DNA of 58,366 bases, taken from Bacteroidales bacterium (GTDB taxonomy: Bacteria > Bacteroidota > Bacteroidia > Bacteroidales > P3). The position numbers and the translations under genes were made by a program. Location of the stretch: the NCBI GenBank assembly GCA_017429685.1, contig JAFROL010000046.1, positions 1 to 58,366 of the forward strand, read 5' to 3'. Below are positions 4,950-47,917 of this stretch, piece after piece (the stretch's first letter is position 1; the number at the start of each line of letters is the position of its first letter). The notes beneath the pieces are model-generated. The model worked only from the letters and a program-made list of their open reading frames with translations. It was not told the origin of the DNA and ran no database searches.

Positions 4950-6179
4950 ATGTTCCGTCCACAACTGATATTGGCCCCAGGAAAAGAAAAAGCCCTGCTG
5001 CGACGCCACCCTTGGATTTTTTCCGGCGCAGTGCGCAAAAGGGTGGGAGAGATGCAGCCCGGCGATCTGGTGGACGTCCTGTCGAGCGACGGACGCTGGC
5101 TGGCCACAGGACATTACCAGGACGATTCGATAATCTGCAAGATTCTTTCGTTCGAAACACAACAAATAGACCGTCAGTTCTATCGCAAGCAGCTTCTTTC
5201 TGCAATCCGCTATCGCGAACAACTCGGCTTCTTCGACAACCCGCAGACCAACGTCTTCCGCCTTGTCTACGGCGAAGGCGACAACCTGCCTGGCCTTGTC
5301 TGCGACTGGTACAACGGCGTGCTGGTAATGCAGGCTCACAGCGCAGGAATGCACCGCGAATTTGCGACACTGGCAGAGCTTATGGTCGAAATGCTTGGCA
5401 AATATGGACTCAAGTCCATTTTCGATAAAAGCAGCGCCACCTGTCCGCAATACGGCGAGCCCGTTCACGACGGATACATTTATGGCGAGCAGCCCAACGA
5501 ATGGGAAATCTCAGAGAATGGCGTCCGATTGCTCATTAACTTCTTCGAGGGGCAGAAGACCGGTTTTTTCATCGACCAGCGCGAAAACCGCGAACTCGTG
5601 GCGCAGCTGGCTCGCGGCCACCGGCTTCTCAACTGCTTCGGCTACACCGGCGGTTTCTCGCTGGCGGCTCTCAAGGGCGGAGCACAATATGTCGAGACTG
5701 TCGACATCTCGAAGAAAGCCATCGAACTCTGCAACCGAAACGTAGAGCTCAACTTCGGCACCGACGCACCCCACAAAGGCACCTGCGCCGACGTACTACA
5801 GTTTTTAAGCGAAGAGGGGAAAGAGGAAGGCGGAGAACGTACCAACCTTACAACCCTCAAGCCCTTCGACTTCATCATCCTTGACCCTCCCGCTTTTGCA
5901 AAAAACCACCGTTCGCTGCAACAGGGACTGAAAGGTTACCGCACTATCAACCAGCGCGCTATGCAAATCATTGCCGACGGCGGACTGCTGATGACCTTCA
6001 GCTGCAGCCAGGCAGTGTCCAAGGACGACTTCCAGACAATGCTCTTTACCGCCGCCAACAATGCGCACCGCCACGTGCGCATCGTCAAGCAGCTGCCGCA
6101 CGCCGCCGACCATCCCGTCAGCATCTACCATCCCGAAGGCGAATACCTCAAGGGACTGCTGCTGCAAATAGAAAAATAG
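4950..6179 (+). CDS. Class I SAM-dependent rRNA methyltransferase, RlmI/RlmK-like
   Basis: The 409-residue protein has an N-terminal PUA RNA-binding domain (about 1-75), a linker domain, and a Rossmann methyltransferase domain. Visible motifs are GFFIDQREN, the SAM-binding NCFGYTGGFSLAAL near 220-235, the acidic end of beta-2 ETVDISKKA, and LDPPAFAKN. A cysteine in TFSCSQ sits where RlmI-type 5-methylcytosine methyltransferases carry a catalytic cysteine. The likely substrate is a cytosine of 23S rRNA, but the exact position cannot be read from sequence. Confidence 0.88.
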   Translation: MFRPQLILAPGKEKALLRRHPWIFSGAVRKRVGEMQPGDLVDVLSSDGRWLATGHYQDDSIICKILSFETQQIDRQFYRKQLLSAIRYREQLGFFDNPQTNVFRLVYGEGDNLPGLVCDWYNGVLVMQAHSAGMHREFATLAELMVEMLGKYGLKSIFDKSSATCPQYGEPVHDGYIYGEQPNEWEISENGVRLLINFFEGQKTGFFIDQRENRELVAQLARGHRLLNCFGYTGGFSLAALKGGAQYVETVDISKKAIELCNRNVELNFGTDAPHKGTCADVLQFLSEEGKEEGGERTNLTTLKPFDFIILDPPAFAKNHRSLQQGLKGYRTINQRAMQIIADGGLLMTFSCSQAVSKDDFQTMLFTAANNAHRHVRIVKQLPHAADHPVSIYHPEGEYLKGLLLQIEK

Positions 6180-6246
6180 TGAATAGTGACACAAACGCGC
6201 CAGCCACTAACAAATTAACATATTAACGAATTAACGCATTCTTCAT
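6180..6246. repeat. Intergenic 7-mer/8-mer repeat module
   Basis: GTGACACAAACGCGCCAGCC, CACTAAC and four (A)NATTAAC octamers fill the gap between the methyltransferase and folE. Confidence 0.7.
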
Positions 6247-6249
6247 ACA

Positions 6250-6855
6250 ATGGAAAAAGGGTACCTTAAAATAGACAAATACGACGAACAGTGTGTGGCC
6301 GAATTGGCGAAGCACTACAAAGAAATCATCCGCCTGTTGGGCGAAGACCCCGAGCGCGAAGGACTCATCAAGTCCCCTGAACGCATAGCCAAAGCAATGC
6401 TCTTCTTCACCAACGGCTACGACCTCGACCCAAAAGAAATACTGCGCTCTGCAATGTTCCACGAAGACTACCGCCAGATGGTCGTCGTGAAAGACATCGA
6501 ACTCTACTCCCTCTGCGAGCACCACCTGGTCCCATTCGTCGGCAAAGCCCACGTAGCCTACATCCCAAACGGCACCATCGTAGGACTCAGTAAAATACCT
6601 CGCATCGTCGACGCCTATGCTCGCCGTCTTCAAGTGCAGGAACGCCTCACAAAACAAATCAAAGACTGCATACAGGACACACTGCAGCCCCTCGGCGTTG
6701 CCGTCGTCATCGAAGCACAGCATATGTGTATGTCGATGCGCGGAGTCCAGAAGCAGAACTCCGTCACCACAACAAGCGATTTCACCGGAGCATTTATGAA
6801 AGACCCCAAGACGCGCGAAGAGTTTATGCACATCATCGGCGTCAATCTGCATTAA
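6250..6855 (+). CDS. folE: GTP cyclohydrolase I
   Basis: The 201-residue enzyme converts GTP to 7,8-dihydroneopterin triphosphate, the first step of folate synthesis. The zinc ligands C89 and H92 lie in [10 protein letters not shown], with C160 in [10 protein letters not shown]. The substrate motif [20 protein letters not shown] is at 112-131. Length and the C-terminal FTGAF motif are typical of the type IA family. No other folate genes are adjacent. Confidence 0.96.
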
Positions 6856-6869
6856 TATTAAAGTGGGAA

Positions 6870-6968
6870 GTGACCAGAGACCTGTGATATGAGCACATTC
6901 GTGTCACTGGTCACAGATCATAGGTCACTAATCACTAACGAATTAACACATTCACAAATTAACGAATT
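6870..6968. repeat. Intergenic inverted 7-mer module plus octamers
   Basis: GTGACCAGAGACC and its inverted counterpart TGTCACTGGTCACAG flank the core CACATTCGTG, followed by AATTAACG/CATTCAC octamers. Translating through it produces an artefactual 28-residue N-terminal extension on the next gene. Confidence 0.7.
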
Positions 6969-6972
6969 ACCA

Positions 6973-7845
6973 ATGAAACAGAAGTTCTTGATTGTTGCCG
7001 CACTGCTGCTGGCCACCCTCTCATCCTGCCGCACACGGCAAGTGGCCTACATCAGCGACGCCACGCGCGACAGCGTTCAGCAGATACTCGACACCTATGT
7101 CGCCACCATCTTGCCCGGCGACCAGCTCTACATTTATGTCGGTAGCAACACACCGCAGAGCGTCATCCCCTTCAACCAGGAAACCCACAAGCTCCTGATA
7201 GAACAAAACAAAACGCTGAATCTGGACACAACGCACCGTGCCGTCATTAAACAAGGCGAGGGGTCGCCGAAGACTGAGACCCAGTACCTTACCGCCGAAA
7301 TTACAGGCTATACAGTCAAAAACGACGGCACAATCAACTTCCCAATACTCGGCACCATACAAGTTGCCGGCATCACCATCGACAGCCTTTGCAACCTGAT
7401 AGAACATCGACTCATAAAAGAAGGCTACGTGCTCGACCCACAAGTCAGCGCAAAAATTATGAACTTCCGCGTCACCGTGGTCGGCGAAGTACGCAATCCG
7501 CAGCAAATCCACGTCGACGGCACACGACTCACAATCCTTGAAGCAATAGCCATCTGTGGCGACCTGACCGACTACGCCCGTCGCGACAACCTGCTTGTCG
7601 TGCGAACCGACAGTGGCAAACGCCAGGCTGCCGAAATAGACCTGACCAAAAAAGAAATGCTCGATTCGCCGTTCTACTATCTGCACAACAACGACATAGT
7701 CTATATCGAACCCACCGATCGGCGCAAGCGCATTTCAGACCGCGACCAGAATGTACCAACCTACATCTCGATGGGAGTCAGCCTCTTCAGCATCATCCGA
7801 ACCAACATCGGAACAGCACTCGAAATACAACGACAGCAACAATAG
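6973..7845 (+). CDS. Polysaccharide export (Wza-type) outer-membrane lipoprotein
   Basis: The 290-residue protein starts at ATG 6973; an in-frame upstream ATG at 6889 would only add repeat sequence. The signal peptide ends in a lipobox with C19 (LSSC). A poly-export domain follows (ILPGDQLYIYVGSN, then INFPILGTIQVAG) and then SLBB-like sequence (FRVTVVGEVRNPQQIHVDG). Wza-family proteins form the outer-membrane pore for capsule or exopolysaccharide. It is short compared with Wza and stands alone: no Wzc kinase or glycosyltransferase is adjacent, so the exported polymer is unknown. Confidence 0.9.
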   Translation: MKQKFLIVAALLLATLSSCRTRQVAYISDATRDSVQQILDTYVATILPGDQLYIYVGSNTPQSVIPFNQETHKLLIEQNKTLNLDTTHRAVIKQGEGSPKTETQYLTAEITGYTVKNDGTINFPILGTIQVAGITIDSLCNLIEHRLIKEGYVLDPQVSAKIMNFRVTVVGEVRNPQQIHVDGTRLTILEAIAICGDLTDYARRDNLLVVRTDSGKRQAAEIDLTKKEMLDSPFYYLHNNDIVYIEPTDRRKRISDRDQNVPTYISMGVSLFSIIRTNIGTALEIQRQQQ

Positions 7846-7857
7846 CGCGGTAATTAT

Positions 7858-7926
7858 AAGTGATCAGTGAACAGTGACCAGTGACCAGTGAATAGTTAAA
7901 CGAACACGCTCGTGTCACTGGTCACC
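7858..7926. repeat. Intergenic inverted 7-mer module
   Basis: Four GTGANCA heptamers lead into CACGCTCGTGTCACTGGTCACC, which inverts the same motif, so the segment can form a long imperfect hairpin after the polysaccharide export gene. Confidence 0.65.
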
Positions 7927-7999
7927 CATAATATTTTTAATTTTTAATTATTAATTATTAATTTTTAAGATTCTTTTTCTGCGAAAAAAACAAAATATT

Positions 8000-8029
8000 T
8001 TTGCAGAATAAAAAAAATACATACCTTTG
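8000..8029 (+). promoter_or_regulatory. Promoter for the 8.05-8.2 kb leader and probably the exported-protein island
   Basis: TTTG at 8000-8003 and TACCTTTG at 8022-8029, separated by 18 bases, match the Bacteroidetes consensus. The next elements on this strand are a 40-codon frame, a terminator-like hairpin, and then the 8298 gene. Confidence 0.6.
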
Positions 8030-8055
8030 CACATTATAACACAAATACACATCCT

Positions 8056-8178
8056 ATGCCTATTAAACACAAAACATTAAGCACCAACACTTTACCCCCT
8101 CCAGATAAAAATTTGATATTCGCTTATCAAAGGCGAACTATGATATACACAGAAACGGACAGCATCATTGAAAGATGA
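8056..8178 (+). CDS. Possible 40-residue small protein or leader peptide
   Basis: ATG at 8056 opens a 40-codon frame (MPIKHKTLST at the start, DSIIER at the end) that begins about 20 bases after the predicted transcription start. It stops at TGA 8176-8178, inside the terminator-like hairpin that follows. No family is recognised. The layout promoter / short frame / hairpin with U-tract resembles an attenuator leader or an independent small transcript. A non-coding RNA is equally possible, since no ribosome-binding sequence can be seen. Confidence 0.3.
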   Translation: MPIKHKTLSTNTLPPPDKNLIFAYQRRTMIYTETDSIIER

Positions 8179-44511: not shown

Positions 44512-44661
44512 CTTTTGTGAATAGTGAATTGACCGCGTCAGCCACTAACACATTAGCAAATTAACGAATTAACAAATTAACACATTAGCAAATTAACGAA
44601 TTAACAAATTAACAAATTAACACATTAACGTATTAACACATTAACGAATTAACACATTAAC
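44512..44661. repeat. Long octamer array
   Basis: A short GTGAATAGTGAATTGACCGC stretch is followed by about sixteen (A/C)NATTAAC or CATTAGC octamers. The order of units repeats partly (CATTAGCAAATTAACG occurs twice), showing internal duplication. Confidence 0.85.
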
Positions 44662-44662
44662 A

Positions 44663-44689
44663 AAAGGGTGGCCACAATGGCCACCCTTT
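44663..44689. terminator. Bidirectional terminator between convergent genes
   Basis: AAAGGGTGGCCA and TGGCCACCCTTT form a perfect 12-base stem with loop CAA, serving the GH3 fusion gene on one side and the riboswitch-controlled gene on the other. Confidence 0.85.
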
Positions 44690-44725
44690 CTTATAAAAAC
44701 ATACTGATAAAGAAGTCGAATCAAG

Positions 44726-47551
44726 TTATTTCTTTATTATTTTGTGCACCGCACCGTTGGTGCGAAGCATATAGACACCTTGAGGCAGATTGCTGATTTC
44801 GACAGTGTTTGCACCCTCGTGGAGGGTCATTGTCGAAACGGCGCGGCCATTGATGTCGAAGAGGATAGCCTCGACGCTTTCGCTGCCGCTCATAACGACG
44901 TTTACGCGCTCGCTAGCGGGGTTGGGATAGACGCTCAGGCTGATGCCATCGGCCATATCGATTGCCTCGACCTTCTGGTTGAGGACAGCTACACCGGCCA
45001 GGTCGAATCCCGACGAACCGCCCGGCGTGGGCCACGGGTCGTTGATGAGGCGGCCTTCGCTGTCGCGGGTGCCGTATTCGGGGTCAATGCTGCCCACCAC
45101 GTCGACAATGCGGACGTGGGTGATGTTGTTGATATCAAGGCCGGTGCTGTCGCGCAACTCATTGAGGTCAAACGGTGTGCCATAGCCCATACGGAACTTG
45201 CCAGCCAGATTGTTGATCATCGTCGGGTCGGTCGAACCGTTGCCGCCGGTCTGCACTTCGGTCTGCGTCAGAGAGACGGCGGGGAAGCGGACAAAACGCT
45301 CGCCGTCCGAGCTGACCTCGACGAAGGCCAGTTCGAGGAAGGCGTCGCCAAACGAGTTCTCATAGACGGCAAAATCGAAGCCTTCGCCATTGACGATGGG
45401 ACTGTCGAACGTCAGCGTGGCCCTGCCGGCATCGCCGAGGCTTACGACGGTAAGGTTGTCGCTCATATCGACGGGACCCACGGCCATCGAGTCGGCACCG
45501 TAGCTGGCGTAGGCGGCAGCAGTCGAAATGACCTGATAGCCGCGCTCGACGACGCAGCCCGTGGCCCAAGCCTTGATGGCAGCGCTGTTGGCGGCAATGG
45601 CATTGCAGCCCTCAGTACCCACGGCGCCGCAGAATGGACCGCTGACAATGGGTGCGCTGACGGGAAGCACAGGCATAGGATAGACATAGATATAGTTGTA
45701 GGCGCCCCAGTCTTCAACCCAAGCGCTGTCGACCAGAATGCCGGTGCTGCTTTCGGCCCACTTTTCAAAGTCGCCGTTGGCAAGTGGCTGGCTCATACCC
45801 ATATCCATCACGCCGTTGTTTGTACTGCCCCACCAGTTGGCGGGCAAGCGGCGCAGCGTGTCGCCGGCGACGGTGACAAAGAGGATGTCGTCGATGCCGT
45901 AGGTGCCGGGCACGATGCTGAAGCGCGGGTCGGCAGCTGCAATGTCGTTCAACATATCGCCGACGGTCTTGGTTCCGTCGAAGCGGTAGCCCCAAGCCAG
46001 AGCTCGCGTAGGCCAGTTGACGGCCAGAACAACCTCGTTCTGACCCTCGCCGACCCAGTACTGTATTTCGCTGGCAGCGATAGTGGCCTCGACAGGCAGC
46101 GGAACGCTTACGGGGCTGATTGTCATAGGATAGACATAGATGTAGTTCCAGTAACCGCCATAACTTTCAACCCAAACGCTGTCGACCAGAACGCCGGTGC
46201 TGCCATCGGCCCACTTCTCGAAGTCGCCGTCAGTAAGTGTCTGAGCCATACCCATATCCGTCACGCCGTTGTTGGTGCTGCCCCAGAAACTGGTGGCCAG
46301 GCGGCGCAGCGTGTCGCCGCTGTTGCAGACAAAGAGGATGTCGTCGATGCCGTATGCGCCAGGCACGATGCTCAGGCGCGGGTCGGCGGCGACTATGTCG
46401 TTCATCATATCGCCGACGGTCTTGGTGCCGTCGAAGCGGTAGCCCCAAGCCAGAGCCGTGTCGGGCCAGTTGACAGCCAGAACGACCTCATTCTGACCTT
46501 CGCCAACCCAGTACAGGATATCGCTGGCGGCGATGGTTGCCTCCTCGACTGTCGGGTCATTGCCGGGCACAGGCACCGGCGTGGGGGCCTTGATCCAAGC
46601 CTCCTGCAGAAAATAAGTACCAAGCGGGTCCCAGCCGATGGCCGAGTTCATATCGCCGTATTTGAAGACGTCGCCGTTGTGCATTGTCGAACCGGCACCA
46701 GCATCGGCACTGACACCGTTGAGGTTGGTCCACCAGAAGTTGTAGCCCACCGAGGGGTCAATAGGCGAAAGTCCAAGAGTGTCGCCATTATCGGTAACGA
46801 AGTGAATATCACCATTAAACGAGGGCGTTCCCACCGTCCAGAAGCGCGGGTCGGCGGCATCGATGGCGTCGATCATCGCCTGAGCCGTGGTAGAGCCGTT
46901 GAAGAGGTACCCCCAGGCAAAAGCCGTGTCGGGCTGGGCGAAGTTGACGATGAAGGCGGCGCTGTCGCTGCCCGAGCCAACCCAGAACAGGATGTCGCTG
47001 AAGGCGATAGTGGCGTCGACGGGGTCGGACGACGAGCCGCCGTTGGGGTCGCTGGCGGCCACTGCTGAGGTCATAGTAAAACTGCAACTGCTGCTGACTT
47101 CGATCAAATCGCCGTCGCTAACCGGTTGATTGCCATATGCATTCATAGCCCACGATCCGTTGAGGTAGTAGCACCATCCGTAGGAGGAACTGCCAGAAAC
47201 AAGGGTGCCGTCATTGTACGACACCTCGCCCATTAACGAGCTTGAGTAGGTATAGCTGAAACGGCTGTCGTGCGTGGCTATCGAGTCAATCAAGCCGAGG
47301 GCCGTGGTGTTGCCATTCCAATGGACGCCCCAAGCCAAGGCAAAGTTTCCGTTCGGATTATCATCCCAGCCAACAACAACAACTGCTGAATTGCTGCCGC
47401 TGCCAACCCAATACTGGACATCGGAAGCTGGAAAGCTTACACTCTTTGCACGGGCAATGTTTTTAATATGCCCGGCGTTGTTGCCCTCCTGGGCCGATGC
47501 GCCAAAGGCCATCACCAAGCCCAAAGTTAGAAAGATTAGTTTTTTTAGCAT
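44726..47551 (-). CDS. T9SS-secreted protein with four transcobalamin C-terminal-like domains
   Basis: The 941-residue protein has a signal peptide (1-20). Four related domains follow at about 45-160, 185-322, 343-478 and 492-630. Each starts with a strand such as DILYWVGEGQNEVVLAVNWP, continues with ALAWGYRFDGTKTVGDM and ends with a Trp/Asn-Gly turn plus a GD motif (YGWCYYLNGSWA..VSDGDLIEV; FWWTNLNGV..HNGDVFKYG). This matches the layout of the DUF4430/transcobalamin C-terminal family, which holds cobalamin in transcobalamins. A further beta domain (636-857) and a type-A T9SS domain (873-941, SVYPNPASERVNV) follow. A cobalamin riboswitch lies upstream. B12 binding is inferred. Confidence 0.75.
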   Translation of the reverse strand: MLKKLIFLTLGLVMAFGASAQEGNNAGHIKNIARAKSVSFPASDVQYWVGSGSNSAVVVVGWDDNPNGNFALAWGVHWNGNTTALGLIDSIATHDSRFSYTYSSSLMGEVSYNDGTLVSGSSSYGWCYYLNGSWAMNAYGNQPVSDGDLIEVSSSCSFTMTSAVAASDPNGGSSSDPVDATIAFSDILFWVGSGSDSAAFIVNFAQPDTAFAWGYLFNGSTTAQAMIDAIDAADPRFWTVGTPSFNGDIHFVTDNGDTLGLSPIDPSVGYNFWWTNLNGVSADAGAGSTMHNGDVFKYGDMNSAIGWDPLGTYFLQEAWIKAPTPVPVPGNDPTVEEATIAASDILYWVGEGQNEVVLAVNWPDTALAWGYRFDGTKTVGDMMNDIVAADPRLSIVPGAYGIDDILFVCNSGDTLRRLATSFWGSTNNGVTDMGMAQTLTDGDFEKWADGSTGVLVDSVWVESYGGYWNYIYVYPMTISPVSVPLPVEATIAASEIQYWVGEGQNEVVLAVNWPTRALAWGYRFDGTKTVGDMLNDIAAADPRFSIVPGTYGIDDILFVTVAGDTLRRLPANWWGSTNNGVMDMGMSQPLANGDFEKWAESSTGILVDSAWVEDWGAYNYIYVYPMPVLPVSAPIVSGPFCGAVGTEGCNAIAANSAAIKAWATGCVVERGYQVISTAAAYASYGADSMAVGPVDMSDNLTVVSLGDAGRATLTFDSPIVNGEGFDFAVYENSFGDAFLELAFVEVSSDGERFVRFPAVSLTQTEVQTGGNGSTDPTMINNLAGKFRMGYGTPFDLNELRDSTGLDINNITHVRIVDVVGSIDPEYGTRDSEGRLINDPWPTPGGSSGFDLAGVAVLNQKVEAIDMADGISLSVYPNPASERVNVVMSGSESVEAILFDINGRAVSTMTLHEGANTVEISNLPQGVYMLRTNGAVHKIIKK

Positions 47552-47640
47552 AACTGATACTGTTTTAAAATGTTAATACAATTATTCACACCATTCAGTA
47601 TCGGCGGCAAACAAAGGAAAGGGGGAACGATAACTCGGAG

Positions 47641-47660
47641 AAAAAACGGCACAACCTGCC
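47641..47660 (-). terminator. Candidate expression platform of the cobalamin riboswitch
   Basis: On the minus strand GGCA-GGTTG-TGCC is followed by GTTTTTT, a small intrinsic-terminator-like hairpin. Its 5' half (GGCAGGTT) is also complementary to the GACCTGCC at the 3' end of the aptamer, so the two can form an alternative pairing. The stem is short; this is inference. Confidence 0.35.
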
Positions 47661-47715
47661 TTCTGATTCCGATTTACCGGGCACTTTTTCCTCGAAAGCG
47701 GACCGATATTTTCAG

Positions 47716-47880
47716 ATTTGGCAGGTCTTCTGACTCGTTCTTTGCCCTTCAGCCTTCCCACGCACCTATGGCGATGCGCAGTGGCTAAAACGTTGAATGG
47801 CAAACTACTGAACTCACAGCAGCGGGACTGTTCAGGACTCTCACCTGATTCCCTTTTGACGCCCTTTCGGGCGACCAAAT
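47716..47880 (-). ncRNA. Cobalamin riboswitch aptamer
   Basis: On the minus strand, stem P1 is ATTTGG (47880-47875) with CCAAAT (47721-47716). Inside are GGGAATCAGGTGAGAGTCCT, ACAGTCCCGCTGCTGTGA, the B12-box core AGCCACTGC (47786-47778), GTGGGAAGGC, and the closing AGTCAGAAGACCTGCC. These are the conserved segments of cobalamin riboswitches, in order. It controls the gene starting at 47551; the opposite-strand genes from 48242 are not in its transcript. Confidence 0.93.
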
Positions 47881-47886
47881 CGACTG

Positions 47887-47917
47887 CAAAAGTACATACT
47901 TTTTCCAATATGGCAAA
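47887..47917 (-). promoter_or_regulatory. Promoter of the riboswitch transcript
   Basis: Minus-strand TTTG (47917-47914) and TACTTTTG (47894-47887), 19 bases apart. Transcription would start within a few bases of P1, so the aptamer opens the RNA. Confidence 0.7.

Follow-up and report, generated by a model that had tools for sequence, protein, structure and literature searches.

The stretch analysed here, hereafter the window, comprises 58,366 nucleotides of a Bacteroidales bacterium (contig JAFROL010000046.1 of assembly GCA_017429685.1) and carries on its minus strand a cobalamin riboswitch followed by a gene for a 941-residue protein that combines a signal peptide, four copies of a repeated domain (R), one BtuH-like domain (C) and a C-terminal sorting signal of the type IX secretion system (T9SS). 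The product of this gene is probably a B12-repressed, T9SS-exported, multivalent cobamide-capture protein. Computation shows the riboswitch itself, the order of domains, a predicted fold for each of R and C, the conserved linkage to a riboswitch, and the occurrence of related genes together with BtuB, BtuG, BtuH and DUF4465 (BtuJ-type) genes.

Riboswitch and protein architecture

The aptamer is a full-length member of Rfam family RF00174, spanning model positions 1-189 at 47894-47703 of the window (minus strand) with 111.2 bits against a gathering threshold of 31.5 in cmscan; the complete aptamer described in the original prediction thus passes the covariance model. The gene behind it lies on the same strand with an ATG start (47551-44726), as had been proposed, and ends in a T9SS type-A signal that exceeds both curated cut-offs (TIGR04183, 41.7 vs 23; PF18962, 45.1 vs 27), while the genome holds 18 further T9SS-tail-like matches. 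All four repeats are recovered at E 5e-41 to 3e-56 by an iterated profile that was seeded with one repeat and includes all four, their limits (residues 38-175, 180-326, 338-481 and 489-631) fall near those first proposed, and R3 and R4 share 78% identity. Overlooked at that stage was a fifth conserved domain, the BtuH-like C at residues 638-857. Together R and C fill residues 38-857, and no propeller family that would indicate a BtuG-type domain occurs among the Pfam matches of the protein. Since no lipobox is seen in it by eye and a T9SS tail is present instead, the protein is described as containing a BtuH-like domain and not as a BtuH.

Protein similarity searches collected 51 related loci (loci and genomes are cited below by L and G numbers). 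In these loci and the window taken together, profile searches count 178 R domains, spread over 50 proteins, and 44 C domains, one in each of 44 proteins. Among the 41 proteins that combine R with a tail, that of the window included, four R copies are the most frequent number (17 proteins), followed by three (11), five (10), two (2) and one (1, L042, cut by a contig end), and C never occurs more than once per protein. Six giant relatives of about 2,200-2,400 residues (L023, L037, L060, L062, L066, L068) carry large insertions among their R domains, and Fn3 modules were found there in L023 and L066, the two giants checked.

At 46 of the 51 loci the gene follows a cobalamin riboswitch of its own strand, either immediately or as a member of an operon that the riboswitch heads (45 of 50 when the hits of a scan of 49 genomes are mapped by coordinates, plus L059). 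At four of the five remaining loci (L031, L038, L042, L055) the contig starts inside the gene, and at the fifth, L056, it starts in a receptor-like open reading frame (ORF, recognised by eye) that is followed by a BtuG-like gene and then the R..C gene; the L056 genome is the sole one of the 49 without a riboswitch match. At L058, two cobalamin riboswitches stand back to back in divergent orientation (5253-5443, minus; 5625-5816, plus).

The R domain resembles the transcobalamin beta domain

The modelled R repeat adopts a beta-grasp fold with a beta-hairpin inserted after the helix, as in the DUF4430/transcobalamin C-terminal domain, and structure comparison of this predicted fold matches it to the beta domain of transcobalamin, intrinsic factor and haptocorrin. 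At the sequence level, PF14478 matches 15 of 101 non-redundant R repeats at E<=0.01 (best 2e-6). The DUF4430/transcobalamin assignment of the original prediction therefore stands for the modelled fold and falls short for the family itself: PF14478 reaches 22.2 bits in the window protein, below its cut-off of 23.8, for which reason R is named transcobalamin-beta-like and not filed as DUF4430. R further differs from the known beta domain in its fourfold repetition, in an identity of 10-13% and in having no alpha/alpha toroid partner seen. A B12-scavenging role was proposed for bacterial transcobalamin-like domains in 2007; the bacterial members described in PMC1796856 include Gram-positive wall-anchored ones, whereas the host of R belongs to the Bacteroidota and its protein carries a T9SS tail.

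The variable number of R copies, from one to five with C never above one in the 41 proteins, would also fit a design in which C alone binds B12 and the R domains serve to keep it at a distance from the surface. Such a spacer role may be played by PKD domains in BtuH2, where, according to PMC8941943, these Ig-like domains precede the B12-binding domain, and the Fn3 modules among the R domains of the two giants checked point the same way. We nevertheless judge a spacer role unlikely, given that the R fold resembles the beta domain of B12 carriers and not an Ig fold, and that cobalamin riboswitches also precede R genes whose fetched stretch contains no C gene (L121, L139).

The C domain resembles BtuH

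A model of C built from 37 sequences (predicted local distance difference test, pLDDT, 88.6; predicted template modelling score, pTM, 0.90) agrees in fold with the B12-binding C-terminal domain of BtuH. Ranked by Z, BtuH2 (BT1956, 7biz) is the closest match (Z 11.9 over 155 residues, 3.3 A, 17% identity), followed by the H domain of BtuG1/BtuGH (8blw_B, 10.5), with the CBM32 of AlyQ at 9.6. For profile comparison, a BtuH profile (A6) was built from seven sequences, drawn from proteins encoded beside R genes; this profile matches 8blw_B (BtuG1) at 1e-84 and 7biz at 1.2e-55, and hhalign aligns C to it with 47% identity over 36 columns (P 1.7e-4, probability 49%). Global mode of hhalign gave no meaningful C-BtuH alignment, and PDB sequence searches with the C profile returned nothing convincing. 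Of ten BtuH-like ORFs, a sequence model of C recovers seven (E 3e-4 to 4e-3); it recovers none of the reversed sequences.

Within the aligned stretch, the asparagine of the GNAF motif corresponds, assuming a numbering offset of 100, to Asn399 of BtuH2, which is reported to contact the phosphate (PMC8941943). It aligns with Asn95 of C, invariant in all 37 aligned sequences, and Phe401 of BtuH2 aligns with Phe97, retained in 30 of the 37. The BtuH2 contacts Gln333, His476, Tyr510, Trp511 and Trp577 fall outside the reliable alignment. BtuH and the window protein are alike in being extracellular (by prediction for the latter), in their B12 riboswitch and in a multi-domain build with N-terminal modules; they differ in that C is shorter (220 residues) and without corrin-contact counterparts in the reliable alignment, and in that BtuH carries a lipoprotein signal where the window protein has a T9SS tail.

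The nearness of CBM32 raises a further alternative, namely that the protein takes another ligand, either a glycan through a CBM32-like C or a small ligand through R, and owes its riboswitch to being required once B12 is exhausted, a logic that may also apply to the other two riboswitch genes of this genome. This alternative appears very improbable: the top two C matches by Z are both B12 proteins (BtuH2 and BtuG1), relatives sit in BtuB-BtuG operons, and R genes adjoin BtuH.

Operon context of related genes

The proposal that a T9SS protein captures B12 gains support from genomic context, that is, from the riboswitch pairing, the BtuB-BtuG operons and the BtuH neighbours. The order riboswitch, BtuB, BtuG, RRRC occurs at L041, L043 and L049, and riboswitch, BtuG, R..C at L024, L032, L039, L053 and L054. 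Of the three receptors in the first group, that of L041 matches chain 8blw_A, the BtuB1 of Bacteroides, at 5.9e-145, and those of L043 and L049 are named BtuB by position and by sequence likeness to it. The BtuG profile has its best matches in 8blw_B, 8ptf and 8ptd (1e-99 or better), with other YncE/surface-layer chains near 1e-55, and its search places BtuG in 48 of the 49 relative genomes (all except G019). Riboswitch, receptor and BtuG are consecutive in four of six stretches read (L076-L079), the L076 receptor matching BtuB1 at 1.6e-128; L081 begins within the receptor gene, and L080 gave no clear frame for its receptor. In Bacteroides, BtuG and BtuJ (DUF4465) likewise serve B12-regulated capture, and their genes are found in operons of the relatives (BtuG in several, DUF4465 in L064). 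Both are lipoproteins there, a propeller and a jelly roll respectively; no domain of either type was detected in the window protein.

Several further arrangements were observed in these surroundings. At L064, a cobalamin riboswitch is followed by a T9SS-tailed DUF4465 (BtuJ-type) protein (650-1657), a C protein, a TonB-type receptor (by eye) and a BtuG-like gene; from its sequence, DUF4465 seems to be another B12-binder family using T9SS. A T9SS-tailed DUF5074 propeller lies inside a B12 operon at L065 (4627-5916), and in L113-L118 an R domain is joined to a beta-propeller, which Pfam assigns to DUF5074 in L113 and L115, the two checked. In eight genomes (G001, G002, G003, G005, G011, G013, G028, G043), BtuG matches come in two pieces of swapped order, like a circularly permuted propeller. 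At L119 (1279-2067), an R-domain protein that reads by eye as a lipoprotein is flanked by a BtuH-like gene on one side and a DUF4988/DUF5074 gene on the other. It is possibly of the BtuK type of Bacteroides, whose setting is comparable: BtuK1 (BT_1486) is a cobamide-binding predicted lipoprotein encoded in a riboswitch operon near btuH1. It is plausible that BtuK1 is itself an R-domain protein.

Distribution and origin

In a phylum-wide sample of 395 genomes, C occurs in 43, with strong, near full-length matches in nine (the window's own genome included) and weak or partial ones in the others, and R in eight, its own included. A sample of the order seeded with an R protein yielded R in 25 of 198 genomes, again counting its own. 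Among 18 scanned R loci of the order sample, a cobalamin riboswitch is present at 14, and nine show the succession riboswitch, R gene, C gene; the T9SS tail is found in six of the nine R genes and eight of the nine C genes of these cassettes, the ninth C gene being cut by the end of the stretch. At the eight R loci of the phylum sample, the short flank holds a riboswitch in one (L121), and a BtuH-like gene lies directly upstream in the other seven, so that the operon start may lie outside the fetched stretch.

Given separate R-C cassettes in other Bacteroidales, the window gene is best read as a fusion: judged from these gene orders, it probably arose by joining the separate R and C genes of a one-riboswitch cassette, with subsequent multiplication of R. 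Elsewhere, C occurs in other company. In L085, L086 and L087, a weak cobalamin riboswitch (35-41 bits) is followed by a short gene of membrane-protein appearance (assigned to DUF6580 in L085, the sole one checked) and then by a C-domain gene, and at L098 (1432-2973) a weak C-domain relative adjoins a gene that resembles, by eye, a cob(I)alamin adenosyltransferase.

Expression signals and flanking features

The features of the locus are collected in Table 1. The original prediction had credited the aptamer with its own promoter. The Bacteroidota promoter box TAnnTTTG borders the aptamer match on its 5' side in the window and, overall, in 41 of 44 sequences (the window and 43 loci), so that the Rfam match probably opens with promoter sequence; a sigma-70 scan listed no promoter at the box of the window. 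The same motif is also named in PMC9723704. Directly 3' of the aptamer, one of five related hairpin motifs is present in 44 of 44 sequences (the motif variants were picked after inspection), and this hairpin is perhaps part of the expression platform. A transcription antiterminator, in which a downstream GGCAGG would pair with the B12 box and free a small terminator in the window, was considered and rejected: the motif occurs in just three of the 44 sequences, so antitermination is not claimed as a general mechanism.

Table 1. Features of the riboswitch-controlled locus in the window
Feature	Position	Strand	Basis or remark
Promoter-like box TAnnTTTG (TACTTTTG), 5' edge of aptamer match	47887..47894	-	Sequence
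Cobalamin riboswitch aptamer RF00174, full length	47703..47894	-	cmscan, 111.2 bits, E 4.8e-27
Small hairpin CTTTCGAGGAAAAAG, directly 3' of aptamer	47684..47698	-	One of five related motifs
941-residue protein, SP-R-R-R-R-C-tail (SP, signal peptide), ATG start	44726..47551	-	ORF and domain searches
N-terminal signal peptide, residues ~1-20	47492..47551	-	Read by eye
R1, transcobalamin-beta-like, residues 38-175	47027..47440	-	Local hidden Markov model (HMM); PF14478 at residues 120-151, E 1.9e-4, below cut-off
R2, transcobalamin-beta-like, residues 180-326	46574..47014	-	Local HMM
R3, transcobalamin-beta-like, residues 338-481	46109..46540	-	Local HMM
R4, transcobalamin-beta-like, residues 489-631; sole R copy modelled	45659..46087	-	
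C domain, BtuH-like, residues 638-857	44981..45640	-	
T9SS type-A C-terminal sorting domain, residues 874-941	44732..44935	-	PF18962, 1.2e-11; TIGR04183, 8.3e-11
Strong inverted repeat after stop codon, possible terminator	44662..44690	-	Fold -22.3 kcal/mol

The inverted repeat behind the stop codon was not listed by a consensus terminator scan. About 15 tandem copies of an 8-base unit (TAACAAAT) occupy window positions 44546-44664, between convergent gene ends. As originally stated, no BtuB gene is adjacent: the genes next to it encode a GH3/beta-lactamase-like protein and an amidohydrolase, and since both lie on the opposite strand, the gene is probably monocistronic. We regard a 774-residue ORF on the strand opposite the gene as a shadow ORF of the repeats.

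The genome encodes a B12-dependent methylmalonyl-CoA mutase, and its 2.65-Mb assembly (G000) holds three cobalamin riboswitches, that of the window included. One of the other two (C24:78305-78505; L004, gene 6058-8157 minus) precedes an anaerobic ribonucleotide reductase (NRDD 4e-99), a B12-independent enzyme. The remaining one (C31:15735-15926; L002/L005), like one in a relative (L036:11288-11478), precedes a gene of the acetyl-CoA hydrolase/transferase family and is possibly tied to the B12-dependent succinate-propionate route.

Proposed function and its place among B12-capture systems

Cobamide binding, surface location and hand-over to BtuB/BtuG are predictions. When intracellular cobalamin is scarce, the riboswitch would, as its aptamer family suggests, permit expression; the signal peptide would then direct the protein across the inner membrane and the type IX system across the outer membrane, after which, to judge from the tail, it would be anchored on the surface or released. 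Outside the cell, up to five modules (four R and one C) could bind cobamides, and the captured vitamin would be passed to a BtuB/BtuG transporter encoded elsewhere and imported. Precedents exist for single steps. In Bacteroides, both BtuH and BtuG are surface proteins that bind B12, and BtuH has been suggested as a possible loader of BtuBG (PMC10404256); BtuG2 is able to acquire B12 that intrinsic factor carries (PMC6143338); and surface B12 binders under riboswitch control are already known, for example from PMC12751083.

A number of observations weigh against this function. For R, they are the sub-threshold PF14478 match at residues 120-151, weak Foldseek hits to transcobalamin-family entries (E 0.02-0.3; template modelling score 0.40-0.52 by query length) and a search of R profiles against PDB sequences that found no transcobalamin. 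For C, the Z lead of the B12 proteins over CBM32 is modest; Foldseek ranks CBM32 and F5/8-type domains first and second (2e-3), ahead of 8blw (third, 3e-3) and 7biz (fourth, 7e-3); the sequence likeness to BtuH is limited to about 36 columns at 49% probability, a stretch in which the BtuH2 corrin contacts His476, Tyr510, Trp511 and Trp577 have no counterpart; and three of the ten BtuH-like ORFs were missed by the C model. Within short flanks of about 1.5 kb, a riboswitch was present at 15 of 26 surveyed R loci (1/8 and 14/18). Furthermore, the window's own assembly yields no BtuG in a profile search and, with a relative's BtuB as query, no close BtuB, only distant TonB receptors. A true loss of BtuB/BtuG was considered and set aside: the neighbour gene of the relatives' BtuB-BtuG operon (PHP-type by eye) is also not found in the assembly, which makes an assembly gap the likelier explanation. 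A gap in the 96%-complete assembly thus likely hides the BtuB-BtuG region, and the absence of these genes is not used here.

Within the open-licence PMC literature searched, the T9SS route and this combination of domains were not found; that route, the pairing and fusion of R and C, and the two domain families in this role appear to be new in that literature. Cobalamin riboswitches and type IX secretion came together only in PMC9723704, where the riboswitch is reported before a TonB transporter; for any two of type IX secretion, vitamin B12 and BtuB, none of the 15 matches listed, of 413, was on the subject by title. By title and opening of the abstract, the DUF4430 and transcobalamin-like literature offered nothing on Bacteroidota with T9SS, and PMC1796856 was the only paper found on bacterial transcobalamin-like domains. 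The term type IX is absent from the text of PMC8941943, PMC12751083, PMC13398666, PMC10404256 and PMC6143338.

A bolder extension, possible and on balance doubtful, would treat the protein as a five-site secreted cobalophore, in which R would close one face of the corrin and C or a neighbouring R the other, much as happens between the alpha domain and the beta domain in the transcobalamin of animals. On this reading, B12-capture modules throughout the Bacteroidota (R, C, DUF4465 and propeller) would have in T9SS a second, generally used way out of the cell, and ruminant gut symbionts would share the fold of intrinsic factor with their hosts.

Surface capture bears on which gut organisms obtain B12. 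The known Bacteroides system consists of the lipoproteins BtuG, BtuH, BtuJ and BtuK1, and what is seen at this locus and in its relatives suggests that a second set of capture proteins, exported by type IX secretion, exists alongside it in rumen and gut Bacteroidales and beyond. Two unnamed domains thereby gain a testable function, the transcobalamin-beta-like domains of Bacteroidota are placed in a B12-regulated setting, and the repeat proteins described here may represent multivalent B12-binding scaffolds.

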